Assembly (NCBI GenBank): GCA_903819975.1
Contig: CAIJFI010000004.1
Span: forward strand, 248,001 to 312,000
Direction: 5' to 3'
Source: an uncultured Bacteroidota bacterium
Lineage (GTDB): Bacteria > Bacteroidota > Bacteroidia > Chitinophagales > Chitinophagaceae
DNA length: 64,000 nucleotides
Shown here: piece after piece, positions 30,674-48,236 of the stretch
How the letters are laid out: every line of letters begins with the position of its first letter
Position numbering within the stretch: the first letter of the stretch is position 1
The notes under the pieces: model-generated
What the model saw: only the letters and a program-made list of their open reading frames with translations
Database searches by the model: none
Told to the model about the DNA's origin: nothing
Position numbers and translations under genes: made by a program

Positions 30674-30772
30674 CCCGAAATGTCATAGTAGTGTCAAATT
30701 ATGAGCTTATTGAGGTAATTATTGATGCTCATTTATAAGTGTGTTTACAATTCTTTTGAACTTTGTATTCAA

Positions 30773-32857
30773 ATGAAGAAAACACTTGTATATCTATTAA
30801 TACTGACTCCCTCTTTTTTGTTTTCACAAATAAGATTCATCAGGGATACCATGCAAATGCAGGGTGACACTGTGGTAGTAACTGCAAATAGAACAGAGCG
30901 AAAATTGAGTAATGTTACCGTTCCGGTTAATATTATTAACGCAAAGCAACTTCAACAAACAGGATCTTTAAGACTTACAGATATTTTAAAAGAACAACCG
31001 GGCCTAACCATTTCAAGCGGTTTTGGCGCTGGTGTACAATTACAAGGTTTAAACCCAGATTACACTATCATACTTATTAATGGAGAGCCACTAGTCGGAA
31101 GAACGGCTGGTGTTTTGGATTTGAATAGAATTGCGCTTGGGAATATTAAAAAAATTGAAATTGTAAAAGGTCCCTCTTCAAGTTTATATGGAAGCGAAGC
31201 AATGGCCGGGGTAATAAATATTATAACGGACGCGACTACAGCGATACCATTACAAGCTTCATTAAGGTATGGAACATATCAAACCTTAGATGCAGGTATT
31301 AATAATTCAATCGCCACTAAATCTATTTTTTATCAGGGTTTCTATAATTATTATAGTACCAATGGATATAGTATAAGACCTAATAGCAGTAGTCGTGTAA
31401 CTACTCCTATTGATAGATTTACAACAAACCAACAATTTAAAGTAAACCTAAGTGACAATACAAATCTTGCATTAGGATTAAGACTGACAGATGAAAAAAT
31501 TCAAAATGATATTTCGGTAAGTAATGGAGGTACAACTATTACATCTAATGGCAAGGAACATAATACAGATCAAAATTTTAATCTAACATTAAATCACAGA
31601 TTTTCAAACAGTTTAAAAACAAGTTTTAGAGGTTATTCAACCGAGTATAACTCAAAGCAAGATCTCGTTACTGTTACTGGATCACCTTATTACGATTTGT
31701 TAAATCATTTGTTTCAACGTATCGAAAATCAAACCGACTGGAGTATCAATAAACAATTGAATTTGCAAATAGGTGCAGGTTCTGTTTGGGAAGGCGTTAA
31801 GAGTACTAGGTATGATAGTGAAAAAGTAAGAAAAAATAATTCAATTCAATATGGATTTACGCAATTAGAATGGGATGCGAATAAAAAACTAATTGTAATA
31901 GGCGGGTTAAGATTTGATAAAAATGAAGCTTATGCTTCGGCTTTCAGCCCTAAAATTTCGGCCCTATATAAATTAACTACTAAACAAAAAATTAGATTCA
32001 GTATTGGTGAAGGATTTAAAGCCCCAGATTTTAGACAAATTTATTTAGACTTTACAAATGCAGCAGCAGGTGGTTATAGTGTATTTGGTACCGCTCAAGC
32101 TCAACAAGTAATTGGGCAGTTGCAAACAATGGGACAAATAGGAGCGTTGTATGATAATTATTACCAATTAAAAGCATTAAAACCTGAATACTCAACTGGA
32201 ATGCATCTTTCATGGGATTACGAACCTACTGTTAACAGTCTTTTAAGTGTTCAAGTTTTTAGAAATGATATTAGCAACTTAATTCAGGTACAGCAAGTAG
32301 GTGCATATATTACTGGCGCACAAATATTTAGTTATTTAAATATTGGACGTGCATTTACACAAGGTGTTGAAATAGAAGCTAAACAAAAAATAGCTAAGAA
32401 TTTAATTGTAAGTGGAGGATATCAGTATTTAGAAACTGGAGACAAAGATCAAATTGCGCATATTAAAGCTGGAACAGTTTATACAAGAGATGCAAATGGT
32501 TATAGTAGGCTTTTGACTTTAAGTGATTACGTTGGACTGCCTAATAACAGCAAACATAAAGCACAATTAAAATTAAGTTATTATAAGACCAATGGATTTT
32601 TTGCAAATGTGAGAGCATTGTATCGTAGCCAATGGGCAGTGAATAATACGAATGGGAACGAAGTATATGACAATGGCGATGAATTTGCAAAAGGTTATGT
32701 GTCAGTAAGCTCTTCTGTTGGTAAAGACTATAAAAATGGATTTTCGGTTCAGGTAGGATGTGATAATATTTCTAATTATATAGATGCTTCAAATTTACCC
32801 AACCTGCCAGGCAGAACCTACTTTGCAACAATCAAATATCAAATATCAAAAAAATAA
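30773..32857 (+). CDS. TonB-dependent receptor, probably haem uptake (HmuR-like by context)
   Basis: DTVVVTANRTERKLSNVTVPVNIINAKQL, IEIVKGPSSSLYGSEAMAGVINIIT; immediately followed by a HmuY-like gene; signal peptide from Met at 30773. Confidence 0.88.
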   Translation: MKKTLVYLLILTPSFLFSQIRFIRDTMQMQGDTVVVTANRTERKLSNVTVPVNIINAKQLQQTGSLRLTDILKEQPGLTISSGFGAGVQLQGLNPDYTIILINGEPLVGRTAGVLDLNRIALGNIKKIEIVKGPSSSLYGSEAMAGVINIITDATTAIPLQASLRYGTYQTLDAGINNSIATKSIFYQGFYNYYSTNGYSIRPNSSSRVTTPIDRFTTNQQFKVNLSDNTNLALGLRLTDEKIQNDISVSNGGTTITSNGKEHNTDQNFNLTLNHRFSNSLKTSFRGYSTEYNSKQDLVTVTGSPYYDLLNHLFQRIENQTDWSINKQLNLQIGAGSVWEGVKSTRYDSEKVRKNNSIQYGFTQLEWDANKKLIVIGGLRFDKNEAYASAFSPKISALYKLTTKQKIRFSIGEGFKAPDFRQIYLDFTNAAAGGYSVFGTAQAQQVIGQLQTMGQIGALYDNYYQLKALKPEYSTGMHLSWDYEPTVNSLLSVQVFRNDISNLIQVQQVGAYITGAQIFSYLNIGRAFTQGVEIEAKQKIAKNLIVSGGYQYLETGDKDQIAHIKAGTVYTRDANGYSRLLTLSDYVGLPNNSKHKAQLKLSYYKTNGFFANVRALYRSQWAVNNTNGNEVYDNGDEFAKGYVSVSSSVGKDYKNGFSVQVGCDNISNYIDASNLPNLPGRTYFATIKYQISKK

Positions 32858-32863
32858 TCTCCA

Positions 32864-33508
32864 ATGAAAAAAAGTTTACAATCAATCGCGTTAATTATTG
32901 TTTTGGCAACTAGTGTTATAGCATGTTCAAAATCAGATACTACAACAGTATTGCCAGTTACTGCTGTTACAGTAAGAGATATCCCTGCTGATACAGTTGT
33001 TGGCTTAAGTTCACAAGGAATGCCAATTACTAATGGTATTTATACATTTTATAGTCTTGAAAAGAATGCGTTAGTACCTAATACGGATAGTGCTAGTACA
33101 AAATGGGATATTGCATTTATGTCAACACGCATTTTAACAAATGGTGGCACAAGTGGTGTAGGATTAGGCGGTGCATTTGTTTATACAGGTTTATTTGACG
33201 ATTTAAAAACAATCTCTACAGATTCTGTTTTCAAAACTGATAATGCGCCTACTTCTTATGCAATTACAACTGGTAGTGGTAAAGGTTGGTACACATATGA
33301 TCAATTAACAAGCTTGATCACTCCATTAGCTGGTAGAGTTTTGGTTATTAGAACCGCATCTGGTAAATATGCAAAAATGGAAATCACATGTTATTATAAA
33401 GGAGGAACAACACTTCCTGCATCAGCAACTGACATGGATAAGTTAACAAAACAACGCTATTATACTTTCCGTTATGCTTATCAACCTAATGGAACTAAGA
33501 CCTTCTAG
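32864..33508 (+). CDS. hmuY: HmuY-like haem-binding lipoprotein
   Basis: Lipobox TSVIAC; STKWDIAFMSTRILTNGGTSG typical of the HmuY family; 6 nt after the TonB receptor. Confidence 0.78.
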   Translation: MKKSLQSIALIIVLATSVIACSKSDTTTVLPVTAVTVRDIPADTVVGLSSQGMPITNGIYTFYSLEKNALVPNTDSASTKWDIAFMSTRILTNGGTSGVGLGGAFVYTGLFDDLKTISTDSVFKTDNAPTSYAITTGSGKGWYTYDQLTSLITPLAGRVLVIRTASGKYAKMEITCYYKGGTTLPASATDMDKLTKQRYYTFRYAYQPNGTKTF

Positions 33509-35648: not shown

Positions 35649-35676
35649 AAAAGCACCAACCTGAGTTGGTGCTTTT
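35647..35676. terminator. Inverted repeat terminator
   Basis: AAAAGCACCAAC / GTTGGTGCTTTT. Confidence 0.75.
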
Positions 35677-35701: not shown

Positions 35702-36619
35702 TTATTTTCCTAAGAAAGTGCTTCGGTTAATTGTGAAACCTAGTGCGAAACTACCATTAGCGATACTCATGCTGTTTCTAGATAATTGGTCGATATTAGA
35801 TCCAAATGTTGTATTACCAACAAAGAAGCGAAATTGGTGACCTCCAGAATTAACTTCAACACCTACAGAAAGTAAGTCAGGTTGGTAATTTATGATATTG
35901 CCTGTGCTAGTTAATATATTTTCATACATATTAAGTTGACGAGAATATTCAAAATCTAAATTGATTAAATCAGAAAGTTTATACTTTCCACCCAATCCAA
36001 TTGAATATATTTCATTGTCATTATTTATACCATAAGGCACTTTGTTAAAGTGAACTACAGTTGGCATTAATTGTAATGAAAGTTTATCACTAAACTTGCG
36101 AGAGATTAAAAGTTGATTTACATAGTTGTATCTATCTCCAACAAAAGTGATTGACTTGTCTGGCGCAGTGTTAACATTAACCAAAGAGTATAAGGCTAAA
36201 GAAACCGGGATGTTTTTTGCGCCTGTTTGTTGACGTAAAAATTTAATTTTTGTAAATCCTTCATACTTTGAACTTCCAGCTGCAGCTACACCCACATTTA
36301 ACCAACGTACTGGTGAATAATCAAAAGACAAGTAAGTGTAAGCAACACCAGAGTTAATACCAAATAATTGCGCGCCAATTTGTGATCCCGCGTTTTTATT
36401 ATAGATTTCACTAAAGTGGTGAGAAATCATAAACTGAAATTCTCCTTTTGCTCCCATTTCAGTAGTCTGCATGTTGATTAGCTTAGATGTGCTAAATACA
36501 TTTTTAGTGATTTTTTGTTTTGGAGCTACTTTAACTTCTGCTACCGTACTATCAGTTTGAGCAAATGATTGACTCATAAATCCAAGACAAATTATACTAA
36601 GCGAAAATATTTTTTTCAT
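35702..36619 (-). CDS. DUF5777-like outer-membrane beta-barrel protein
   Basis: Signal peptide; alternating beta-strand pattern; LINMQTTEMGAKGEFQFMISHHFSEI, FDYSPVRWLNVGVAAAGSSKYEGFTKIKFLRQQ. Confidence 0.72.
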   Translation of the reverse strand: MKKIFSLSIICLGFMSQSFAQTDSTVAEVKVAPKQKITKNVFSTSKLINMQTTEMGAKGEFQFMISHHFSEIYNKNAGSQIGAQLFGINSGVAYTYLSFDYSPVRWLNVGVAAAGSSKYEGFTKIKFLRQQTGAKNIPVSLALYSLVNVNTAPDKSITFVGDRYNYVNQLLISRKFSDKLSLQLMPTVVHFNKVPYGINNDNEIYSIGLGGKYKLSDLINLDFEYSRQLNMYENILTSTGNIINYQPDLLSVGVEVNSGGHQFRFFVGNTTFGSNIDQLSRNSMSIANGSFALGFTINRSTFLGK

Positions 36620-36667
36620 AAATTTTTGTTTTAAGACAATTATAATTAATTGACCAATTTAAATTAA

Positions 36668-37285
36668 CTACTGTGGTTGCCCTTGTGCAATCCAAGTTAA
36701 AATAGTGTTTGTTGTACAAGAGTTTAAACTTAATACTGGACCAGGGTGACCTGTTGCGCCGCCACTCTTCATCATAGTAGTTAGTACTGCTTTGTCGGTT
36801 AATAATAAACTATATGTCAATACAGGAGAAACTGTACCATGACATGTAGAGCTCTTACAAGTAGAATTGTAGATTGGTAAGAAATTTGTATTGTAGGTAA
36901 TTGCACCTGAAACGACACAACCACCACCATCATCTTTAGCGCCTTGAGCTATCCAAGCATGCATTACTGTTTTTTGAGCATCAGTAAAGTGTACATTACC
37001 GTCTCCTGGGTGTTTTGAATTTGCATCTACCATATCTTTAAAGTTGCTTACCCTAGCAAGAATTGCAGGATAAAAAACGGTATCCAAATGTGAAAATGCC
37101 ACTGCAGTGCTGGTTTGTCCATTATTATGACATCCGCAACCTCCCCCGGTTACAATTGGAACAACCTCACTTCTAAAAGAAACTGTTGGCAATGATTCGA
37201 TATCCGCTTTGTTCTTATAGCAAGATGTGAATGTGCTAGCAATCATTGTTGCTAAAGCTGCCATTGTTATTAATCTTATTTTCAT
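36668..37285 (-). CDS. Lipoprotein with atypical cytochrome-c-like haem motifs (CGCH, CKSSTCH)
   Basis: Lipobox TFTSC; GGGCGCHNNG and NSTCKSSTCHG verified in the DNA. Confidence 0.65.
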   Translation of the reverse strand: MKIRLITMAALATMIASTFTSCYKNKADIESLPTVSFRSEVVPIVTGGGCGCHNNGQTSTAVAFSHLDTVFYPAILARVSNFKDMVDANSKHPGDGNVHFTDAQKTVMHAWIAQGAKDDGGGCVVSGAITYNTNFLPIYNSTCKSSTCHGTVSPVLTYSLLLTDKAVLTTMMKSGGATGHPGPVLSLNSCTTNTILTWIAQGQPQ

Positions 37286-37314
37286 ATCTCTAAAGTTTGT
37301 GTTTAATGAATTGA

Positions 37315-38511
37315 TTACTTAGTAATTACTTTTCCTGTCACTTTATATTTAAAAATACCAGTACCAGCAGTACCGTATTTCCATACATCTGGGATATTTG
37401 GATCAGAAAAATACCAAGCTTTAATTAACGCAATTTCGTTTGGTTTTATACCACCATCTTGGTTAGCCATACCGCCAGAATTTGAAGTAACCCATACACC
37501 TGTTCTTGGGTTAGCCATTAAAATAGTAGAGTCAACTCTTAAAACAATTACGCTAGTACCATTTAAAAAGTCACCTTTTACATAGTAAGCTTTTCTAGAA
37601 GTAGGATCGGTATAAGCTATAGCTGTATTACTTCTAACACCTTTTGGATAATTGATATCAAAAATAATGTCATCATAATCATTTAATGGGCCACGTACAC
37701 TTGCAGCGGCAACCGGAGTAGAGAAAGTTTTATATGGTCTAAAACTTGCATTAGCTAATGTGTCAGCATAGAATTTTCTTACACTATCCTTATATTCTTT
37801 TAATATAGTGTTACGTAATGTAGTATTGTTAAGTTGTAGATATGAACTTACAGCACCTGTAGTAAGGCTAGTAGTTGTCCAAACAGCTGTATCAGCAACA
37901 ACTAATCCAGGTATTAAATTTTTTCTAGCCCAAACGCCAGTACTTGTTGCTTCGTTATGACAGTTACCAGAAGTACAACCAGAACTAATTATAGAAACGG
38001 CTGCTGGTCTAAAGTCGTTTGCGTCTGGTCTTTCTTTGGCGCCGTTTAAAATCCAGTTGTAAACAATTGCTTTATCAGCAACGGCTACATCAGTACCTGA
38101 AGTTATAGGAGGCATTGCTTTATTAAAGTCGTTGGTAGTCATAGAAACCCACAACTTGCTAGCTGCTGGGTTACCAGGAGTAACATACTTCATGATATCT
38201 GCGTAAGTATTTAATTTAGGACTAATTGGGCCGCCATGACAATTAGTAGTATTACAACTTTCAGTTACAACATCTTGTATACCTCTAAAAGTGATACTAT
38301 CATTTTTTGTTGGCGTGGAATTTGCAAAAGCAAATAAGTTATTAGTGTAAAAAGATGAATAAAGGGTGCTATCTGCATTGCCCTTAAATGATCTGTCAAG
38401 ACCAGTAATAACTGCATTACTATCCTCTTTCTTACATTGAATAGAGAATGTGGTAATTGTTACCCCAACTAAAAAAAGCGTGATCAGTTTGACCAAAGAT
38501 ACTTTTCTCAT
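37315..38511 (-). CDS. Lipoprotein with two CX4CH haem-like motifs
   Basis: Lipobox FSIQC; ESCNTTNCHGG and SGCTSGNCHNE; AMPP candidate axial-Met region. Confidence 0.65.
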   Translation of the reverse strand: MRKVSLVKLITLFLVGVTITTFSIQCKKEDSNAVITGLDRSFKGNADSTLYSSFYTNNLFAFANSTPTKNDSITFRGIQDVVTESCNTTNCHGGPISPKLNTYADIMKYVTPGNPAASKLWVSMTTNDFNKAMPPITSGTDVAVADKAIVYNWILNGAKERPDANDFRPAAVSIISSGCTSGNCHNEATSTGVWARKNLIPGLVVADTAVWTTTSLTTGAVSSYLQLNNTTLRNTILKEYKDSVRKFYADTLANASFRPYKTFSTPVAAASVRGPLNDYDDIIFDINYPKGVRSNTAIAYTDPTSRKAYYVKGDFLNGTSVIVLRVDSTILMANPRTGVWVTSNSGGMANQDGGIKPNEIALIKAWYFSDPNIPDVWKYGTAGTGIFKYKVTGKVITK

Positions 38512-38683
38512 AAATTGATTATTTAACTTGTTAAAGAAATAGAACAGAGGAAAATCTCAACATATCTTGTAAAATCTACTCTCGAAATCCTCTTCTAACT
38601 AAAGACTTAATGTCTTTTTCCAAGTGCAAATCTAGTCACGCATTATACCCTCAATTATGATGCTTATCAGAAAATACAATGAG

Positions 38684-38704
38684 AATTGTCATGAAATTGT
38701 CATG
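38684..38704 (+). repeat. Direct repeat AATTGTCATG x2, period 11 bp, in divergent intergenic region
   Basis: AATTGTCATG-A-AATTGTCATG read directly. Confidence 0.6.
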
Positions 38705-38803
38705 TTTTTAAACAACTGATGAAACTCATATTTTTCGCTGATTACCATCATTAATAAGAAAGCGCTTAAATTTTAACCTTTGTGTCATCAAAATCAAATA
38801 CAA

Positions 38804-39202
38804 ATGAAAAAATTATCTGTTTTATCTCTAATCGTTGTTTTTATTACAACAGCAAGTTTTACATTATTACAAACAAAGCCATGGAATGTTCCTGCCGACA
38901 AAGCAAAAGCAGCTAACCCTGTTAAAACAAGTGCGGCATCAGTGTCTGAAGGAAAAGCATTGTGGAGCACACATTGTGCATCTTGTCATGGGAAAGGTGG
39001 TTTAGGTGATGGCGCAAAAGCTACAACATTAAACACTGCTCCTCCAGATTTCAGCAAAGCGGCATTTCAAGGACAAACCGATGGTTCATTGTTCTATAAA
39101 ACTTCAGAAGGAAGAGGAGATATGCCAAGTTTCAAAAAGAAAATTGCAGATCAAGACGACATCTGGAATTTAGTAAACTTTATGCGTAGCTTAAAGAAAT
39201 AG
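38804..39202 (+). CDS. Cytochrome c, class I mono-haem, exported
   Basis: Signal peptide from Met at 38804; HCASCHGKGGLGDG (CXXCH); GDMPSFKKKIADQDDIWNLVNFMRSL. Confidence 0.92.
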   Translation: MKKLSVLSLIVVFITTASFTLLQTKPWNVPADKAKAANPVKTSAASVSEGKALWSTHCASCHGKGGLGDGAKATTLNTAPPDFSKAAFQGQTDGSLFYKTSEGRGDMPSFKKKIADQDDIWNLVNFMRSLKK

Positions 39203-39212
39203 TTCAATTTCA

Positions 39213-39244
39213 AATAATAAGCCTCGGTATCGAGGCTTATTATT
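39213..39244. terminator. Inverted repeat terminator between cytochrome c and Tat/FeS genes
   Basis: AATAATAAGCCTCG / CGAGGCTTATTATT followed by TTTT. Confidence 0.8.
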
Positions 39245-39268
39245 TTTTAATCTCATTCAATTTATTTT

Positions 39269-39541
39269 ATGAATACAGAAAACGGCTCAACTAACGAAAC
39301 TAATACGCGTAGAAAACTACTTGCGGGATTGGGCGCGCTTAGTTTGTTTCCTATTTTAAAGTTTGGTCTTTTGGCGAAGAAAAAGGACGTAATAAGTTGC
39401 GCACCTGATACCAAAAATCAAACAATGAAAATGTTAACTCAGGATGGCAGACTAGTAGAGGTTGACATGTCCAAAATTAAAGGGACAAAAGAAAAAATAT
39501 CAAATAAGCAATTACAAGATTGGGTTAAAAAAGAATTGTAA
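39269..39541 (+). CDS. Small (90 aa) Tat-signal protein of unknown function
   Basis: TRRKLLAGLGALSLFPIL Tat-like signal; 16 nt upstream of the FeS subunit gene. Confidence 0.65.
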   Translation: MNTENGSTNETNTRRKLLAGLGALSLFPILKFGLLAKKKDVISCAPDTKNQTMKMLTQDGRLVEVDMSKIKGTKEKISNKQLQDWVKKEL

Positions 39542-39557
39542 TTAAAAAAGTATTATA

Positions 39558-40472
39558 ATGAATACGAAAGAAAATTCAAGAAGGGAATTCCTAGCTACTA
39601 CATTACTTGCTGGTGCTGCGTTAGCGGGTTGTGGCGGAAATCCATTTACTCCTGACGAAGTAACAGACGTTAAGCCTTCTGGCGAAATGGTAAAATTATT
39701 GTCAGTAGACGGAGAAATTATCGAAGTAGACAAGGCTTTCTTAAAGCCAGTTCCTGAAATGCCACCTGTACCAAATTCAGAGGCTAGAGTAGGTATTCCA
39801 GGGAAGAAATTTGCAATGGTAATTGATTTGTCTAGATGCAAAAGTGTAAAAAAATGTCAGTCAGCTTGTAATCATATGCACCATATACATCCAGGTCAAA
39901 ACTGGATTAAAGTGTATCCAATGCAAGAGTCTGAAAAGACTGCTCCTTATTGGCAACCTACAACTTGTATGCATTGCGATGAACCACCATGTGTGAAAGT
40001 TTGTCCAGTAGATGCAACATTTAAAAGAAAAGATGGTATTGTATTAATTGATAGTGATCGTTGCGTAGGATGTCGTTTTTGTATGGCAGCTTGTCCATAT
40101 TCTTCAAGGGTGTTTAACTGGGAAGAGCCACAAATTGAAAAAGAAATTGCAGACAAGCCATATTCGTGTGAAACAAGCGTTCCTCAAAAGAAGGGTACTG
40201 TTGGAAAATGTGATTTCTGTCCAGATATGGTTCGCCAAGGTGGTTTACCACATTGCGTTTCAGCATGTCCTAACGGAGTATTCTTCTTTGGAGATATATT
40301 AGAAGACTCTGTAACTAATGGATCCGAAACATTCCGTTTTAGTGAATTAATAAAGGATAAATCTGGTTATAGATTAATGGAAGATTTGGGAACTAAACCA
40401 AGTGTTTATTACCTACCACCAGTAAACAGAAATTTCCCTTTTGAAAATTCTGAAGAAAAGGAAAAAGCATAG
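39558..40472 (+). CDS. 4Fe-4S dicluster/NrfC-HybA-like ferredoxin subunit, Tat lipoprotein
   Basis: SRREFLATTLLAGAALAGCGG (Tat + lipobox); CMHCDEPPCVKVCP, CVGCRFCMAACPY, CDFCPDMVRQGGLPHCVSACP. Confidence 0.92.
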   Translation: MNTKENSRREFLATTLLAGAALAGCGGNPFTPDEVTDVKPSGEMVKLLSVDGEIIEVDKAFLKPVPEMPPVPNSEARVGIPGKKFAMVIDLSRCKSVKKCQSACNHMHHIHPGQNWIKVYPMQESEKTAPYWQPTTCMHCDEPPCVKVCPVDATFKRKDGIVLIDSDRCVGCRFCMAACPYSSRVFNWEEPQIEKEIADKPYSCETSVPQKKGTVGKCDFCPDMVRQGGLPHCVSACPNGVFFFGDILEDSVTNGSETFRFSELIKDKSGYRLMEDLGTKPSVYYLPPVNRNFPFENSEEKEKA

Positions 40473-40501
40473 GCTTTCCCCTGATAATTAAAAAATATAA
40501 C

Positions 40502-41809
40502 ATGGAAAAACTAGCAGAAAATAAAATTATTGAAGACCTATTACCACAGAAATTTGGTAAGCAAGGACAAATTTGGGTAATAAGTTTATTAGCCGTTTGT
40601 GCTTTAGGGTTTTATGCATATTGCAGACAATTGTATTATGGATTGGAAGTAACTGCCTTAAGAGATTATGCTTCTTGGGGAATATATATTTCCAACTTTG
40701 TATTTTTTGTAGCAATAAGTTTGGTGGGATCTTTAATTACTGCAGTGTTGCGTTTAACCGACGTACATTGGAGTACACCATTAACCAGAATTGCCGAAAT
40801 TATAGCAGTTTCCGCTATCTCTTTTGCAGGGTTAATTATCATAGTAGATATGGGACGTCCCGATCGCTTTTACAACTTGTTCACACATGGTAGATTACAA
40901 TCTCCAATTATTTGGGATGTAATTGTAATCACTACTTATTTATTTATAAGTTTATTGTTGTTGTATTTCCCATTATTACCAGATTTAAAAATCATGATTG
41001 GTTATAAAGAACGTAATGGAAAATATTTACAAAAGCTATATGAGTTCTTAGGCTCTTTTTGGAAAAATAAACCGGAACAATTTAAAATCACCGATAAGGC
41101 GATTAACATTTTGTCTGTAACTATTATCCCTGTTGCCTTTGCTATTCACACTGTTACATCTTGGTTATTTGCAACAACCTATCGCCCAGGTTGGGACAGT
41201 ACTAACTTTGGGGCTTACTTTATTTCAGGTGCATTTTTAGTTGGAGCTGGCGGTGTGTTAATTGCAATGTATGTATTCAGAACACACTATAAGTTAGAAA
41301 AATATATAACCGACGACCATTTTAATAAAATGGGAAAAATTGTGGTATTGCTAGCATTAGTGTATTTGTATTTTAATATTAATGAATTCTTGGTGCCTGC
41401 ATTCAAAATGAAAAAGGCCGAAGAAGAACATTTAATGGGGTTATTTACTGGCGAGTTCTCTCCTATATTTTGGTTTGCAATTTCTGCATCTATGTTAGTG
41501 CCAATTTTAATTCTAGTAACTAAAAAAGGAAGAACACCAAAATGGGCATTTTTTGCAGGTATCTTGGTTGTGGTAGGTTCTTGGTTTAAACGTTTCTTAA
41601 TTGTTACACCTACCTTATTACATCCATTCTTACCTATGCATGATGTTCCAAAAAATTACATGCATTATTTCCCAACTTGGGAAGAGTGGGCCATTGCAGG
41701 CGGGTCCTTAGCAGGAGCATTATTAGTAATAACATTCTTTGCTAGAATATTCCCTATTATCCCTATTCATGAAACCATAATTGAAACTGAGAGCCATGAG
41801 AAAGCATAA
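40502..41809 (+). CDS. NrfD/PsrC-type membrane quinol-interacting subunit
   Basis: Multiple TM helices; VTALRDYASWGIYISNFVFFVAIS, MGRPDRFYNLFTHGRLQSPIIWDV, PVAFAIHTVTSWLFATT typical of NrfD. Confidence 0.92.
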   Translation: MEKLAENKIIEDLLPQKFGKQGQIWVISLLAVCALGFYAYCRQLYYGLEVTALRDYASWGIYISNFVFFVAISLVGSLITAVLRLTDVHWSTPLTRIAEIIAVSAISFAGLIIIVDMGRPDRFYNLFTHGRLQSPIIWDVIVITTYLFISLLLLYFPLLPDLKIMIGYKERNGKYLQKLYEFLGSFWKNKPEQFKITDKAINILSVTIIPVAFAIHTVTSWLFATTYRPGWDSTNFGAYFISGAFLVGAGGVLIAMYVFRTHYKLEKYITDDHFNKMGKIVVLLALVYLYFNINEFLVPAFKMKKAEEEHLMGLFTGEFSPIFWFAISASMLVPILILVTKKGRTPKWAFFAGILVVVGSWFKRFLIVTPTLLHPFLPMHDVPKNYMHYFPTWEEWAIAGGSLAGALLVITFFARIFPIIPIHETIIETESHEKA

Positions 41810-42671
41810 AATAATTCAAGTACTTGTCCTAGTCATTGCACTAGTGCCAAGTCTTTTAATGGCACAGGCCGTTGAAAAAAATAGTTTATCATTAAATCTT
41901 AAGTATTATAATGACAACAACATTACGCATCACTTACTGGTTCAAGCAAAGTCTAAAATAGATGGTAAATTTCAGCAGATTCCAAATATTCCTGTTGAGT
42001 TTTATATTACTACCGACGCCGATAAAGCAAATTTATTAGGTAAGGGCATAACAAATGGCAAAGGAGAAGCATTGATTGAAATTCCTCCAACTGCGAAAAT
42101 GGAATGGCTAAAGTCGCCTAACCAAACATTTGTAGTTACTGCCGCTGCTACTAAAAACTTTGATGACGCAAAAGGAGAGTTAGCAATTACAAAAGCTAAA
42201 TTAAAAATAGATACTGCCGAAGGCCGAATGATAACTGCTAAGATTGTAGCATTAGTGGATACAACTTGGAAGCCAATTGCTGCTGTTGATGTGATTGTTG
42301 GTGTAAGACGTTTAGGCGGTATTTTAAATGCCAATGAAACACAAACCTATCCTACTGACTCAGCAACAGGAGGTGTTACTGCCGAATTTAAAAGAGATAG
42401 TATTCCAGGTGATCAAAAAGGTAATATCGTTTTGGTTGCAAGCGTAGTTGACAATGAGACTTATGGTAATTTAACTGCAGAAATGGTGGTGCCTTGGGGA
42501 AAGAAATCGGTTTATATGACCAATTTTGATCACCGTACATTGTTTGCACGAAGAGGACACTCTCCATTTTGGTTAGAAATCCTTGCATATACAATTGTAG
42601 TGGGTGTTTGGTCTGTAATTATATTCTTATTGGTACAAATTAAAAATATTAAAAAGTTGGGTGTTGAATAG
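41796..42671 (+). CDS. Periplasmic Ig/carboxypeptidase-regulatory-like protein with C-terminal TM anchor
   Basis: Signal peptide (MRKHKIIQVLVLVIALVPSLLMAQA); C-terminal TM LEILAYTIVVGVWSVIIFLLVQI; overlaps the NrfD gene by 14 nt. Confidence 0.6.
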   Translation: MRKHKIIQVLVLVIALVPSLLMAQAVEKNSLSLNLKYYNDNNITHHLLVQAKSKIDGKFQQIPNIPVEFYITTDADKANLLGKGITNGKGEALIEIPPTAKMEWLKSPNQTFVVTAAATKNFDDAKGELAITKAKLKIDTAEGRMITAKIVALVDTTWKPIAAVDVIVGVRRLGGILNANETQTYPTDSATGGVTAEFKRDSIPGDQKGNIVLVASVVDNETYGNLTAEMVVPWGKKSVYMTNFDHRTLFARRGHSPFWLEILAYTIVVGVWSVIIFLLVQIKNIKKLGVE

Positions 42672-42697
42672 AACAGATGTTTGATGTTTTGATAAAG

Positions 42698-42723
42698 AAA
42701 AGGCACTCATATGAGTGCCTTTT
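42698..42723. terminator. Inverted repeat terminator
   Basis: AAAAGGCACTCAT / ATGAGTGCCTTTT. Confidence 0.8.
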
Positions 42724-42784
42724 CGATTTTATAACTATTTTGTATAGTAGATAGCCTTAAATTTAGGAACTAAACTAACAAAAT

Positions 42785-44491
42785 ATGCCACAAGGACTTC
42801 AGACTTATGACTACTTAGTATTTGTACTTTACTTTATATTGATTGCGAGTTACGGATTTTGGATCTACAATCGTAAAAAAACAGCTACCACTAATACAAC
42901 CGATTTTTTCTTGGCAGAGGGGCAATTAACTTGGTGGGCAATTGGCGCCTCATTAATTGCTTCTAATATTTCGGCAGAGCAATTTATTGGAATGAGTGGT
43001 AATGGATTTAGGTTAGGCTTAGCAATATCGGCATATGAGTGGCTAGCGGCAATATCATTAGTTGTGGTGGGTGTGTTTTTCATGCCAGTGTATTTAAAGA
43101 ATAAAATTTACACTATGCCGCAGTTTTTAAAAACTAGGTATAATGAAACAGTGGCAATGATGATGGCAATTTTTTGGTTGTTCTTATACATTTTTGTGAA
43201 TCTTACTTCTATTTTATACCTAGGATCTATTGCTATCAATAATTTAACTGGAGGCGCTAACTTCCATTTAATTATGATTGGATTGGCCGTGTTTGCATTA
43301 TTTATCACATTGGGTGGCATGAAGGTGATTGGTTATACCGATGTAATACAAGTATTAGTATTAACAGTGGGCGGCTTAATCACTTCCTATATTGCATTAA
43401 CAGTAGTCGGAGAAAAATTTGGTTTTGGTAAAGATGCAATTGCAGGATTGAATCACTTAATTAAAGTGGCACCGGATCATTTTAAAATGATTTTTGATAA
43501 ACCTGGTAAAGGTGCAACACAAAAACAAATAGACGATTATTCATCACTACCAGGGCTTGCGATGATGGCAGCTGGAATGTGGATTGCTAATTTAAATTAT
43601 TGGGGTTGTAATCAATATATTACACAAAGAGCGTTAGGCGCAGATTTAAAAACTGCTAGATCGGGAATTTTCTTTGCAGCGATGTTAAAATTATTGATGC
43701 CTTTGTTGGTTGTGATTCCAGGTATTGCAGCTTATGTATTATACCAAAACGGAGCGCTTCACCAAGAGATGTTATCAAATGGAGTATTGAATCAGGATAA
43801 CGCCTATTCCTCGGTGATTGGATTTTTGCCAATTGGCTTAAAAGGCTTGTCTATGGCAGCTTTGACAGCTGCTATTGTTGCTTCATTGGCGGGTAAAGCA
43901 AATAGCATTTCAACTATTTATTCGCTAGATATTTATAAGAAATACGTGAATAAAAATGCTACAGATAAAAGAACGGTTTCAACAGGTCGAATCATGATTG
44001 TCATTTCACTAATCATTGCAATCATAATAAATTGGAACGACACTTTGGGTATTGGAGGCAAAGGTGGTTTTGAGTTCATTCAAAAATATACGGGTTATAT
44101 TTCTCCTGCTATTTTTCCAGTATTTTTATTAGGATTCTTTTGGAAAAAGACAACTTCAAAAGCAGCAATATCTGGTATTATTTTGGGATTAGTTTTAGCA
44201 ATCCTTTTTGATAAGTTCTTACCAAGCATGTTAGGCCATGAAACTATATTATATACCGCATTACCAAACGGACATGGTGGATTTGAAATTCCCTATTTAA
44301 TTCAAATGGGCTGGGTGTTTGTATTTACATGTATTATTATTATAGGCATTAGTTTGATTGATGTAAGTGGACAAACTCATGACAACTCATTGCAAGAGGA
44401 CAATGCAAAATATAAATTAACTAATGCTCATATTGCAATGATTGTTACTATTTTAATAATTGTGGCTGGTTTGTATATTCGTTTTTGGTAA
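42785..44491 (+). CDS. Sodium:solute symporter (SSS) family transporter
   Basis: DFFLAEGQLTWWAIGASLIASNISAEQFIGMSG; GFLPIGLKGLSMAALTAAIVASLAGKANSISTIYSLDIY. Confidence 0.92.
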   Translation: MPQGLQTYDYLVFVLYFILIASYGFWIYNRKKTATTNTTDFFLAEGQLTWWAIGASLIASNISAEQFIGMSGNGFRLGLAISAYEWLAAISLVVVGVFFMPVYLKNKIYTMPQFLKTRYNETVAMMMAIFWLFLYIFVNLTSILYLGSIAINNLTGGANFHLIMIGLAVFALFITLGGMKVIGYTDVIQVLVLTVGGLITSYIALTVVGEKFGFGKDAIAGLNHLIKVAPDHFKMIFDKPGKGATQKQIDDYSSLPGLAMMAAGMWIANLNYWGCNQYITQRALGADLKTARSGIFFAAMLKLLMPLLVVIPGIAAYVLYQNGALHQEMLSNGVLNQDNAYSSVIGFLPIGLKGLSMAALTAAIVASLAGKANSISTIYSLDIYKKYVNKNATDKRTVSTGRIMIVISLIIAIIINWNDTLGIGGKGGFEFIQKYTGYISPAIFPVFLLGFFWKKTTSKAAISGIILGLVLAILFDKFLPSMLGHETILYTALPNGHGGFEIPYLIQMGWVFVFTCIIIIGISLIDVSGQTHDNSLQEDNAKYKLTNAHIAMIVTILIIVAGLYIRFW

Positions 44492-44501
44492 ATAAAAAAT
44501 T

Positions 44502-46046
44502 ATGAATAAAAATATTCAAGGCTTATTGGTTATTGCAAGCTTACTATTGCAAGTGAATTTGTATGCACAAAAAAAAGCAATAGTTTCTACGATATTAAAA
44601 AGTACATTAATATCAAATGTGCAAATCATTGACGGAACTGGTTCAATACCAATAAATGGTTCTGTTAGATTTGAAGGTGATAAAATTGTAGCTATTGGAA
44701 ATATTAAGCCAATTGTAGGAGAAAAAATTATAGATGGAAAAGGTTTAGTATTAGCACCTGGGTTTATAGATGCGCATAGCCATCACTTAGGAGACTTGCA
44801 AAAAAATCCAAATGGATTATCTACTTCTAATCAGGGCATCACTACAGTTGTTATTGGACAAGATGGCGAAAGTTATCCGATGGATTCATTGGTGCTAGAT
44901 ATGCGAACAAAGCCCGTGGTAGCTAATATTGCTAGCTATACGGGGCATTCAAGTTTAAGAGAAGAGGTAATGGGCGAAAAAAATTTATTTAGAAATGCCA
45001 CACAAGCAGAAGTGGATAAAATGAAATTGATTTTAAAATCTGAATTAGATAAAGGCTCTTTGGGTTTGTCTACAGGATTAGAATATGAACAAGCATTTTA
45101 TTCAAATAGGGATGAAGTCATCCAACTTGCAAAGATTGCTGCTAGCGAAAAAACGCGTTATATAAGTCATATCAGAAGTGAGGATGTGACAATGGCTGAT
45201 GCCTTAGACGAAATTATTCAAATAGGTAAGATTACGAAAATGCCTGTACAAATTTCGCATATCAAGTTGGCTAAAAAATCTGATTGGGGAACGGCATCTA
45301 ATATATTAGCTCAATTAGAAAAAGCTAGAGCAGAAGGAGTACAAATAACTGCAGACGTTTATCCATATACTTTTTGGAATTCAACATTAAGGGTATTATT
45401 CCCTGCGCGTGATTATACTAATTTGGCAAGTGCACAATTAGCGGTTACGCAATTATTTGATCCATCTGAATCTTATATAGTACAATATGCACCTCATCCA
45501 AGTTATGTTGGTAAAACGGTTTCAATAATTGCTAAAGAAAGAAAGGAATCAGAAGCACAAGCATTAATGAGTTTGGTTGCTATTGCTGCAGATTTTAAAG
45601 AAAAGAACCCAGGATATAAAGGAAGTATTGAGGCAATAGCTGCAAAGTCAATGAACGAAGCTGATGTGGCAAAATTTATAGCATGGCCATACTCTGTGAT
45701 TTGCTCAGATGGCAATGCTGGTGGACATCCTAGAGGTTATGGTTCTTTCACGAGGGTATTAGGTAAATATGTAAGAACAGATAAAGTAATTGAGCTTACC
45801 AATGCAATTCACAAAATGACTGGACAAACAGCTTCGTATTTAGGAATTAAAGAGAGAGGCACAATTGCGATTGGTAATAAGGCGGACTTAGTTTTGTTGA
45901 ACCCAAACACAGTGATTGATCACGCTAATATTGGAAACAGTCATGCCCTTTCTACTGGAATTGAAATGGTATGGGTAAACGGAACACTAATTTATAAAGA
46001 TCAAAAAGCAACTGGCAAACGCCCAGGTGTACTTATAAAACGCTAA
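44502..46046 (+). CDS. N-acyl-D-amino-acid deacylase-like amidohydrolase
   Basis: APGFIDAHSHHLGDL; LKSELDKGSLGLSTGLEYEQ; PVQISHIKLA; CSDGNAGGHPRGYGSFTRVLGKYVR typical of D-aminoacylases. Confidence 0.88.
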   Translation: MNKNIQGLLVIASLLLQVNLYAQKKAIVSTILKSTLISNVQIIDGTGSIPINGSVRFEGDKIVAIGNIKPIVGEKIIDGKGLVLAPGFIDAHSHHLGDLQKNPNGLSTSNQGITTVVIGQDGESYPMDSLVLDMRTKPVVANIASYTGHSSLREEVMGEKNLFRNATQAEVDKMKLILKSELDKGSLGLSTGLEYEQAFYSNRDEVIQLAKIAASEKTRYISHIRSEDVTMADALDEIIQIGKITKMPVQISHIKLAKKSDWGTASNILAQLEKARAEGVQITADVYPYTFWNSTLRVLFPARDYTNLASAQLAVTQLFDPSESYIVQYAPHPSYVGKTVSIIAKERKESEAQALMSLVAIAADFKEKNPGYKGSIEAIAAKSMNEADVAKFIAWPYSVICSDGNAGGHPRGYGSFTRVLGKYVRTDKVIELTNAIHKMTGQTASYLGIKERGTIAIGNKADLVLLNPNTVIDHANIGNSHALSTGIEMVWVNGTLIYKDQKATGKRPGVLIKR

Positions 46047-46112
46047 AATCTTTGGTTTAGTTTTTATATCTTTATAAGGATCACTAGTTATTAATAAAAA
46101 CAAGAAGGTTGA

Positions 46113-47162
46113 ATGAATAATGCAATTGTACTAACCAATGGCCTATTAACTTCGTCAGATGCAAAAACGGCGCATGGATTAATTAGAGGAACCGAACGTT
46201 TTACAATTTTAGGAGTTATTGACTGTGCTACAACTGCTGGCAAAGACGCTGGAGAATTACTAGATGGACAAAATAGAAATATTCCAGTTTTTGAAAATTT
46301 ACAAACTGCAATTACGCAATTAACTAATTTGAATTATTTAGTCATAGGGGTTGCAACAGTTGGCGGTAAATTGCCTGGCAATATGTTGGAAGTTGTTTTA
46401 AAGGCAATTAATGCTGGTATTTCAATTGTCAACGGATTGCATGAATATTTGAATGACAAGCCGGAAGTTGTGGCTTTGGCGAAATCAAAAGGAGTTGAAT
46501 TGATTGATGTAAGAAAGCCAAAATTGAGAGAAGATTTACATTTTTGGACAGGAGAAATTTATAAAGTTACGGCACCCATTATTGCAGTGATTGGAATGGA
46601 CTGTGCTATGGGAAAGCGAACAACAGCAAGGATGTTAAGACAGTCTTGTGAAGCCAACGGATTAAAAGGTCAAATGATTTACACGGGTCAAACAGGATGG
46701 CTTCAAGGAGGTAAGTATGGATTTGTTTTTGATTCTACTTTAAACGATTTTGTTTCAGGCGAGTTAGAAAATGCGATTGTAAGCTGTTGGAGAGAAACTA
46801 GTGCAGATATTATATTTTTAGAAGGACAGTCTTCACTTCGTAATCCAAGTGGTCCTTGTGGCATTGAATTATTAATATCAGGTAATGCTAAACATGTTGT
46901 TTTGTTATTTGCGCCAAAGAGAAAATATTTTGATAACGATGAGCATTGGGGAGCGATTCCTTCGGTAGCATCTGAAATTGAAATTATTGAAAAACTAGGA
47001 TCTAAAGTTATTGCAGTTGCAGTTAATACCGAAGATTGTACCACCGATGAAGCTTTTGCATATCAAAAAGAATATGAACAGAAACTGAATATTCCTGTAC
47101 TGCTTCCAATACAAGAAGGAGTAGATAAATTAATCCCAACTTTAAAAGGATTGATAAAATAA
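46113..47162 (+). CDS. dgcN: DUF1611 family protein, DgcN-like
   Basis: VIGMDCAMGKRTTARMLRQ P-loop-like; GQTGWLQGGKYGFVFDSTLNDFVSGELE; followed 6 nt later by an enolase-superfamily epimerase. Confidence 0.8.
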   Translation: MNNAIVLTNGLLTSSDAKTAHGLIRGTERFTILGVIDCATTAGKDAGELLDGQNRNIPVFENLQTAITQLTNLNYLVIGVATVGGKLPGNMLEVVLKAINAGISIVNGLHEYLNDKPEVVALAKSKGVELIDVRKPKLREDLHFWTGEIYKVTAPIIAVIGMDCAMGKRTTARMLRQSCEANGLKGQMIYTGQTGWLQGGKYGFVFDSTLNDFVSGELENAIVSCWRETSADIIFLEGQSSLRNPSGPCGIELLISGNAKHVVLLFAPKRKYFDNDEHWGAIPSVASEIEIIEKLGSKVIAVAVNTEDCTTDEAFAYQKEYEQKLNIPVLLPIQEGVDKLIPTLKGLIK

Positions 47163-47168
47163 ATTTAA

Positions 47169-48236
47169 ATGAAAATTGTAGCAGTAAGATCGTATTTAAG
47201 AAAAATGGCATTAACTAAGCCATATACAATTGCATATAATACATACTCGGACGTGAGTTTAGCTTTTTTTGAGGTTGAATTGGCAAATGGAATAATTGGT
47301 TACGGATCTGGAAGCCCAGCCGAAGATGTAGTAGGAGAATCCTCCGATCAGTCTGCAGCGAATTTACAAACCGAATTTGTACAAAACATAGTTGGACGAG
47401 ATATCAGACATTTTCAACAAATTATCTTTGAGACTATTCAACATTTTCCGTATCTGCCTGGAACTCAAGCTGCGATAGACTTAGCATTGCATGATGCATT
47501 TGGAAAATTCATTGGAATTACAATAGCTGAATTTTATGGACGCAAAATAAATGCGCTACCTACTTCGGTAACTATTGGTATTAAATCTGTTCAGGAAGCA
47601 TTGGAAGAAGCAGCCGGTTATAAAGCTTTAGGGTTTAAAATTTTAAAAGTAAAAACCGGATTAGATGTAAATGAAGATATTGAAAGAGTTATAAAATTAA
47701 AAGAACAATTTGGAAGCTATTTTAAAATAAGAGTAGACGCTAATCAAGGATATACGATTCAAGATTTGAAAAAATTTATCGAAGCTACAAGAGCTAAGGA
47801 CTTAGAATTGATAGAACAACCAATACCAGTGGGTACTGAAAATGAATTATTGTCATTAAGCTGGGCAGATAGAAAATTATTGGCGGCAGACGAGTCTTTA
47901 AAAGATCCACAAGCAGCTTTACAATTAGCATCCAACGAAAAGCCTTTTGGCATTTATAATATTAAATTAATGAAGTGTGGCGGTTTGGTAGGTGCTCTAG
48001 GGATTGCCAATATTGCTAATAATGCTGACATTGATTTATTCTGGGGTTGCAATGACGAAAGTATTATAAGTATAACAGCAGCATTACACGTAGCATATGC
48101 TTGTCCTAATACAAAGTATATTGATTTAGATGGTAGCTTAGATTTGGCAGAAGACTTGGTAAAAGGCGGTTTTGAAATTAAAGACGGAGAGATGCATATT
48201 AATAATGCACCTGGTTTTGGTTTTACAATATTATAA
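47169..48236 (+). CDS. Dipeptide epimerase / DgcA-like enolase superfamily protein
   Basis: FKILKVKTGLDVNEDIERV (KxK), IRVDANQGYT, ELIEQPIP, LLAADESL, IKLMKCGGL catalytic motifs. Confidence 0.9.
   Translation: MKIVAVRSYLRKMALTKPYTIAYNTYSDVSLAFFEVELANGIIGYGSGSPAEDVVGESSDQSAANLQTEFVQNIVGRDIRHFQQIIFETIQHFPYLPGTQAAIDLALHDAFGKFIGITIAEFYGRKINALPTSVTIGIKSVQEALEEAAGYKALGFKILKVKTGLDVNEDIERVIKLKEQFGSYFKIRVDANQGYTIQDLKKFIEATRAKDLELIEQPIPVGTENELLSLSWADRKLLAADESLKDPQAALQLASNEKPFGIYNIKLMKCGGLVGALGIANIANNADIDLFWGCNDESIISITAALHVAYACPNTKYIDLDGSLDLAEDLVKGGFEIKDGEMHINNAPGFGFTIL

Follow-up and report, generated by a model that had tools for sequence, protein, structure and literature searches.

We analysed a 64,000-nt stretch of DNA (the window) from the genome of an uncultured member of the Chitinophagaceae, phylum Bacteroidota (assembly GCA_903819975.1, contig CAIJFI010000004.1, positions 248,001 to 312,000), in which a first-pass annotation made from the sequence alone had proposed a divergent arrangement of eight genes as an electron-transfer system. 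All eight open reading frames are present at the positions given there (Table 1). The plus strand encodes a core of five proteins, namely a cytochrome c, a 90-residue protein with a twin-arginine translocation (Tat) signal, a Tat-lipoprotein iron–sulfur (FeS) subunit, an NrfD-type membrane subunit and an immunoglobulin (Ig)-like, C-terminally anchored protein; the minus strand encodes a DUF5777 beta-barrel and two lipoproteins with predicted haem sites. The two halves are inherited jointly and lack a molybdenum (Mo) catalytic partner, and we consider it somewhat likelier to be right than wrong that together they link a menaquinol dehydrogenase without Mo to a haem unit of the outer membrane. 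The genome comprises 2.3 Mb with a completeness rating of 100%, and the named genomes near to it are freshwater metagenome-assembled genomes (MAGs) of Chitinophagaceae or Bacteroidota.

We scanned named genomes with the NrfD alignment alone; this gave at least 580 relatives, and of the 80 loci obtained, 77 have the FeS subunit, 79 the anchored protein, 68 the cytochrome c and 62 the barrel. At the 48 of 80 loci with adequate flanks (at least 5 kb upstream and at least 2.5 kb downstream), these numbers are 44 for the barrel, 45 for a CX4CH lipoprotein, 47 for the cytochrome c and 48 for the anchored protein. All barrel matches lie within 4.0 kb of nrfD, at a median distance of 1.8 kb, and the four barrel-less loci (L105, L117, L121, L124) fall within one six-row clade of the NrfD tree. 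To reduce bias, we also searched 299 genomes drawn evenly from the phylum with the FeS profile; it matched 7, the window genome included, and all six others encode a small haem lipoprotein, the barrel, the FeS subunit, NrfD and the anchored protein. The expectation that the minus- and plus-strand halves co-occur is thus borne out at 44 of 48 and 6 of 6 loci, which confirms that they belong together and are inherited jointly. Across 121 relatives, DUF5777 is present in 89 (31 of 36 genera), in 29 of 29 with the anchored protein vs 60 of 92 without it (Fisher p=3e-5, for genomes that are akin and hence not independent).

All 80 loci are from Bacteroidota except one in a MAG labelled Comamonas, whose contig (L069) carries a Bacteroidota operon and is probably mis-binned. 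Two members of the barrel-less clade (L117:362-1078 and L124:559-6806) encode tetrahaem cytochromes with paired CXXCH motifs and a protein of about 1580 residues with Ig repeats and a type IX secretion sorting signal directly upstream of the core. A second, divergent FeS–NrfD–anchored-protein core, about 45–55% identical to the first and equipped with cassettes of its own, occurs in tandem or nearby at L124:13547-19239, L132, L059 and L190, the last of which has a hexahaem protein upstream as well.

The barrel half has a wider distribution than the core. Most of 20 DUF5777 loci retrieved by genome searches carry small CX4CH or CXXCH lipoproteins and/or YceI without an NrfD core, and therefore DUF5777 plus haem lipoprotein (plus YceI) is a general outer-membrane unit of Bacteroidota, with the NrfD core as one of its users. 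NrfD-free clusters of DUF5777, CX4CH lipoprotein and YceI (L161, L162, L158, L166 and alike) are widespread in the phylum and sometimes occur twice per genome, about 12 kb apart.

Residues expected of a quinone-linked complex are conserved in the core. All NrfD sequences have Ser134 and Arg364, and 85 of 89 have Asp116; Tyr181 of the FeS subunit does not vary (84 of 84). These residues were paired by motif with QrcD Ser138 and Asp120, ActC Arg395 and QrcC Tyr113, and their equivalents are conserved or essential in NrfD and QrcCD proteins (PMC8076601, PMC13059093). The FeS and NrfD subunits thus retain the known quinone-site residues, and this conservation, together with that of the haem residues, supports quinone-linked electron transfer. 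The cytochrome c retains CXXCH and Met107 in 80 of 80 relatives, and the invariance of Met107 therefore points to a His/Met-ligated haem. The FeS subunit has 15 invariant cluster cysteines, the sixteenth (position 97) being replaced in 81 of 84 sequences, so that a [3Fe-4S] or differently ligated cluster is probably present; the predicted complement is probably three [4Fe-4S] clusters and one cluster with a ligand missing. QrcC is likewise listed with a [3Fe-4S] cluster (PMC8076601). Among solved structures, the FeS subunit is nearest to PsrB, ArrB and the C-terminus of ActB, and the best PDB profile matches of NrfD are the ActC subunits of 6f0k (E=1.6e-78), 6lod, 6btm and 8k9e.

Neither the 90-residue Tat protein nor the anchored protein matched a family. 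The anchored protein is modelled with two Ig-like domains and a C-terminal helix (AlphaFold2, predicted local distance difference test (pLDDT) 88.5), for which Foldseek returned generic Ig/FN3/MG-type folds at low template-modelling scores. The 90-residue protein has a C-terminal motif similar to the N-terminal part of the FeS subunit: a segment of the type MLT.DG.LVEVD is common to both, with 39% identity in L060, as if one protein were a free-standing copy of the other's leader region.

No molybdopterin subunit is encoded at the locus, and a genome-wide PF00384 search gave only the sub-threshold ActB of alternative complex III (ACIII). The claim that a Mo catalytic partner is lacking therefore extends from the window to the genome, and a Mo subunit encoded elsewhere is ruled out. 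The accompanying statement that ActA, ActD, ActF and a terminal oxidase are missing is correct for the window and fails for the genome, which encodes a complete ACIII and caa3 on contig C11 and the ccoNO genes of cbb3 on contig C10. Because a separate ACIII is encoded, the plus-strand half is not a piece of it; with ACIII, caa3 and cbb3 all encoded elsewhere, the module is an additional quinone-linked complex. The premise that FeS and NrfD modules usually serve enzymes with a Mo or ActB-type partner has to be relaxed, since SirCD, CbcSTU and DsrOP are modules of this kind without a Mo subunit.

In the outer-membrane half, the model of the barrel shows 12 strands (AlphaFold2, pLDDT 82), and its Foldseek matches FapF, OmpG, NanC and Tsx are alike at the level of fold only. 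The Cys/His haem-like motifs first noted in the two lipoproteins are present, with their assignment corrected: the 398-residue protein has two CX4CH motifs, both invariant, and the 205-residue protein has two cytochrome-like domains, one with CGCH (CXCH) and one with CX4CH, both invariant in 10 relatives, as is Met171/172. The small CX4CH lipoproteins of other loci are homologous to the 205-residue (hhalign E=1.1e-13) and the 398-residue protein (E=2.7e-15). CX4CH is present in 19 of 19 aligned small lipoproteins; the most distant loci (L190-L192) have a canonical CXXCH at the same site, and the small-lipoprotein profile aligns this site onto the haem-c CXXCH of hydrazine synthase and 4rlr. 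By this alignment, the CX4CH lipoproteins are predicted to bind haem through an attachment equivalent to CXXCH. The CGCH of the 205-residue protein, kept in 10 of 10 relatives, takes the place of a CX4CH or CXXCH in the homologous domain and is possibly a new variant of haem attachment. The match of the 398-residue protein to PSCyt1 (E=0.0011) stays below the cut-off.

The mature N-termini of the two lipoproteins differ. In the window lineage, the 398-residue protein starts with CKKED, which we take to be compatible with a surface-export signal of Bacteroidota, and the 205-residue protein starts with CYKNKAD; an N-terminus of the surface-export type is absent from the latter and from the small lipoproteins. 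These N-termini weakly suggest that one haem lipoprotein would reside on either side of the outer membrane.

Three cassettes accompany the constant core: (A) a haem lipoprotein of the EB_dh type that has a CX3CH insertion, together with a small CX4CH lipoprotein, (B) YceI and a small lipoprotein, and (C) the 398- and 205-residue lipoproteins, which is the type found in the window. EB_dh-type proteins match subunit C of nitrite oxidoreductase (E=1.7e-8). In the close relatives L120 and L063, cassettes A and C fill the identical slot, which is flanked by a DUF4442 gene and the gene for cytochrome c. The NrfD tree (a quick tree from which loci without flank were omitted) implies at least 17 changes of cassette, and at least 5 for cassette C. 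Homology of the 398-residue protein to the EB_dh lipoproteins was rejected, as the signal peptide alone aligned; the cassettes are not one family. In our reading, the small haem lipoprotein and the barrel are constant, and it is the outer lipoprotein that is exchanged. Two families without a Pfam or NCBIfam match turn up repeatedly, for the most part together with the YceI cassette: a predicted membrane protein of about 170 residues (L097:3457-3969) in 12 of 80 loci and a lipoprotein of about 165 residues (L097:6487-6981) in 11.

In the mechanism that we propose, NrfD would oxidize menaquinol at the periplasmic side and pass electrons to the FeS lipoprotein, and the mono-haem cytochrome c would ferry them over the periplasm to the small-type haem lipoprotein (here the 205-residue protein) next to the 12-stranded barrel. 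The variable outer lipoprotein, here the 398-residue protein with two predicted haems, and then an acceptor on the outer membrane or farther out would receive them in turn; the 90-residue Tat protein and the anchored protein may be assembly or docking subunits. Of the quinol-to-periplasm or quinol-to-surface conduit put forward in the first-pass annotation, a quinone-linked system is backed by the conserved quinone-site and haem residues, while the donor, the carrier order, the acceptor and an outward passage over the outer membrane are inferred. The tetrahaem cytochromes that stand beside the core in the barrel-less loci L117 and L124 instead of the barrel support the proposed mechanism.

Several points weigh against it. 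With 12 strands, the barrel would be much narrower than MtrB (26 strands) or Cyc2 (16) and may not seat a haem protein; the same model weakens the idea of a split Cyc2, and no fusion of the small lipoprotein to the barrel was seen, the longest open frame among the matches listed being 375 residues. DUF5777, CX4CH lipoproteins and YceI are found without the core, so that the barrel unit may have a job of its own. Markers of hypoxic or anaerobic life adjoin 12 of 80 cores vs 5 of 20 DUF5777-only loci; such a context (NosZ, HemN and RIC in L097, cbb3 in L098, several Crp-type regulators) is no commoner than at DUF5777-only loci and counts as anecdotal. Finally, sequence reveals neither redox potentials nor direction. 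A more far-reaching version is offered tentatively, as a real possibility that falls short of an expectation: a new class of trans-envelope conduit in Bacteroidota, composed of an NrfD/FeS menaquinol dehydrogenase, the 12-stranded DUF5777 barrel, lipoproteins with atypical haem motifs (CX4CH, CX3CH, CXCH) and swappable surface lipoproteins (di-haem, EB_dh-haem, YceI) that would choose the extracellular acceptor.

Four other explanations were weighed. The core could be a reduced, ACIII-like quinol:cytochrome c oxidoreductase that feeds cbb3 or caa3, with barrel and lipoproteins co-regulated and outside the electron path. The ActC relationship of NrfD (E down to 1.6e-78), the presence of caa3 and cbb3 genes in the genome and a locus (L098) with ccoNO-ccoG-fixH directly upstream of the core are in its favour; however, an ACIII is already encoded, and cbb3 genes adjoin only 1–2 of 80 loci, whereas barrel and haem lipoprotein accompany about 92% and all 6 of the evenly drawn genomes. 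We regard this explanation as unlikely. Alternatively, quinol electrons could end at the lipoproteins or YceI to quench lipid peroxyl radicals or re-reduce oxidized envelope molecules, as proposed for BcnA/LcoA. One cassette class has a YceI-type lipocalin in place of a haem lipoprotein, DUF5777-only loci usually carry YceI, and YceI proteins bind quinones, BcnA with cytochrome b561 detoxifying peroxyl radicals (PMC9113575). Such an antioxidant or repair function is unlikely here too, as the window cassette and most EB_dh cassettes lack YceI, the two YceI genes of the genome are on other contigs, and oxidative-stress genes are not recurrent beside the core.

Inward flow, in which the outer lipoprotein oxidizes an external reductant such as Fe(II) to supply the quinone pool or an oxidase with electrons, we consider improbable. 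FoxE, an iron-oxidizing cytochrome, is the best PDB match of both the small CX4CH profile (E=2.3e-4) and the 398-residue profile (E=3.9e-4), but the match is weak and in part a general cytochrome-domain signal. QrcABCD shows that NrfD/FeS pairs are able to reduce menaquinone (PMC13059093), and the missing cluster cysteine of the FeS subunit recalls QrcC with its listed [3Fe-4S] cluster (PMC8076601); against this, the named carriers are mostly ordinary heterotrophs, and the step from a His/Met cytochrome to menaquinone would run uphill unless energy were supplied. A chance neighbourhood of two unrelated gene groups is hardly credible: DUF5777 occurs widely in the order (31 of 36 genera), but its roughly 1–2 copies per 2–4 Mb genome would place it within 20 kb in about 1% of cases, and the observed 44 of 48 and 6 of 6 rule this out.

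Table 1 Features of the module in the window (positions are those of the window)
Feature	Position	Strand	Basis
Terminator-like hairpin, left boundary, 3' of barrel gene	35649..35676	-	
DUF5777 outer-membrane barrel	35702..36619	-	Pfam PF19089 E=3.9e-61; AlphaFold2 model; Foldseek
205-residue predicted haem lipoprotein	36668..37285	-	Open reading frame; CGCH + CX4CH motifs; hhalign
398-residue lipoprotein, two CX4CH	37315..38511	-	Open reading frame; motifs; hhalign
Divergent intergenic region separating two transcription units	38512..38803	.	Open reading frame layout
Periplasmic mono-haem cytochrome c (CASCH)	38804..39202	+	Pfam Cytochrome_CBB3 E=4.3e-13
Terminator-like hairpin, cytochrome c gene / FeS operon boundary	39212..39245	+	15 bp, T-run
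90-residue Tat-signal protein	39269..39541	+	Open reading frame
Tat-lipoprotein FeS subunit, DsrO/PsrB-like	39558..40472	+	NCBIfam DsrO 188.6 bits, cut-off 200
NrfD-type quinone-reactive membrane subunit	40502..41809	+	Pfam E=2.5e-31; PDB profile match ActC 6f0k
Periplasmic Ig-like two-domain protein, C-terminal membrane helix	41796 (ATG)..42671	+	AlphaFold2, Foldseek
Terminator-like hairpin, right boundary, 3' of anchored-protein gene	42697..42724	+	

The outer two hairpins bracket the module, and the hairpin first noted downstream of the cytochrome c gene, ahead of the FeS operon, was found again. The number of terminator-like hairpins (6 vs 4.2 expected) is not significant, promoter matches in the divergent intergenic region are no more frequent than in shuffled sequences, and the single match to the Bacteroidota promoter pattern in the window is at chance level. 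Near the module (30722-33508), a TonB-dependent receptor gene is followed by one for an HmuY-type haem-binding lipoprotein (Pfam E=4.6e-12); the pair is kept in about 9 of 80 loci, all from a single lineage, and could supply haem. At 42785-48236, 3' of the module, lie genes for an SSS-type sodium symporter, a D-aminoacylase-like amidohydrolase, DUF1611 and an enolase-superfamily epimerase-like protein, which are confined to the window's own lineage and probably form a separate operon for peptide or D-amino-acid catabolism. Both flanking groups, present in only 8–9 of 80 loci, which belong to one lineage, were excluded as parts of the module. At L097:2657-17676, the module is flanked by the FeS-repair gene RIC and by HemN and a Sec-type nitrous-oxide reductase, NosZ.

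To our knowledge, extracellular or outer-membrane electron transfer is established mainly for Geobacter, Shewanella and iron oxidizers, and for Bacteroidota of soil and freshwater, most of which are aerobic heterotrophs, we know of no such dedicated pathway in the literature. A literature search returned no paper on DUF5777 and none describing the module. If the proposed mechanism is correct, hundreds of genomes encode a testable envelope respiration route, with a role for DUF5777 and a large class of CX4CH lipoproteins; the carriers include the isolates Limnovirga soli, Chryseolinea serpens, Mucilaginibacter flavidus and Pontibacter ramchanderi, which makes the idea testable. A survey of NrfD proteins assigned only ActC/F and two NhcC to Bacteroidetes, and a Mo-free complex would be added to this inventory (PMC8076601).

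The combination of genes, the barrel family and the haem motifs fit none of the Mo-free FeS/NrfD and barrel–cytochrome systems compared here. Like the complex iron–sulfur molybdoenzymes, the module has an FeS subunit and an NrfD-type anchor, but it has no molybdopterin subunit. With ACIII it shares an ActC-type NrfD (by PDB profile matches), an FeS subunit similar to the C-terminal half of ActB and a mono-haem cytochrome c, whereas the locus and its relatives lack the pentahaem ActA, the Mo-like ActB domain, ActD and ActF. DsrO and DsrP of DsrMKJOP are the best NCBIfam matches of the FeS subunit and NrfD, yet the scores (188.6 and 133.7 bits) are below the cut-offs of 200 and 350 bits, DsrM, DsrK and DsrJ are absent from the window locus and the loci inspected, and a sulfite-reductase context is missing. 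QrcABCD is alike in its NrfD/FeS menaquinone module, its matching quinone-site residues and one expected non-4Fe cluster; it differs in the hexahaem QrcA and in QrcB, which the module lacks, and the scores are far below the cut-offs.

Barrel–cytochrome units are known from MtrAB and Cyc2 (PMC8406198). As in these and in MtoAB, the barrel of the module is genetically tied to haem proteins, and the pairing of a barrel with a mono-haem protein is reminiscent of Cyc2; by analogy with porin–cytochrome systems, electrons may pass the outer membrane via the barrel. MtrAB, however, has about 26 strands around an embedded decahaem protein, compared with 12 predicted strands and lipoproteins with one or two haem motifs, and Cyc2 fuses a CXXCH domain to a 16-stranded porin, whereas the module has separate genes, with no fusion frame among the matches listed. 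BcnA/LcoA resembles cassette B only, in that a YceI lipocalin is tied to a quinone or haem redox partner; that system is without barrel and FeS/NrfD, and the window cassette is without YceI (cytochrome b561 was not searched for).

In logic, the proposed dehydrogenase would resemble SirCD of Shewanella and CbcSTU (Cbc4) of Geobacter, in which a Mo-free FeS protein and a membrane quinol dehydrogenase deliver electrons to periplasmic cytochromes; SirCD stands in for CymA with ferric citrate, dimethyl sulfoxide and fumarate, and CbcSTU is alike in logic (PMC11434368). These systems use multihaem cytochromes (CymA-type, CbcS) and are without a DUF5777 barrel, a 90-residue Tat protein and an Ig-like anchored protein, and the likeness is one of logic. 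The gene content that the module shares with them is an FeS subunit and NrfD (plus cytochrome c) with no Mo subunit, and its conserved quinone-site residues make it a candidate quinol dehydrogenase.

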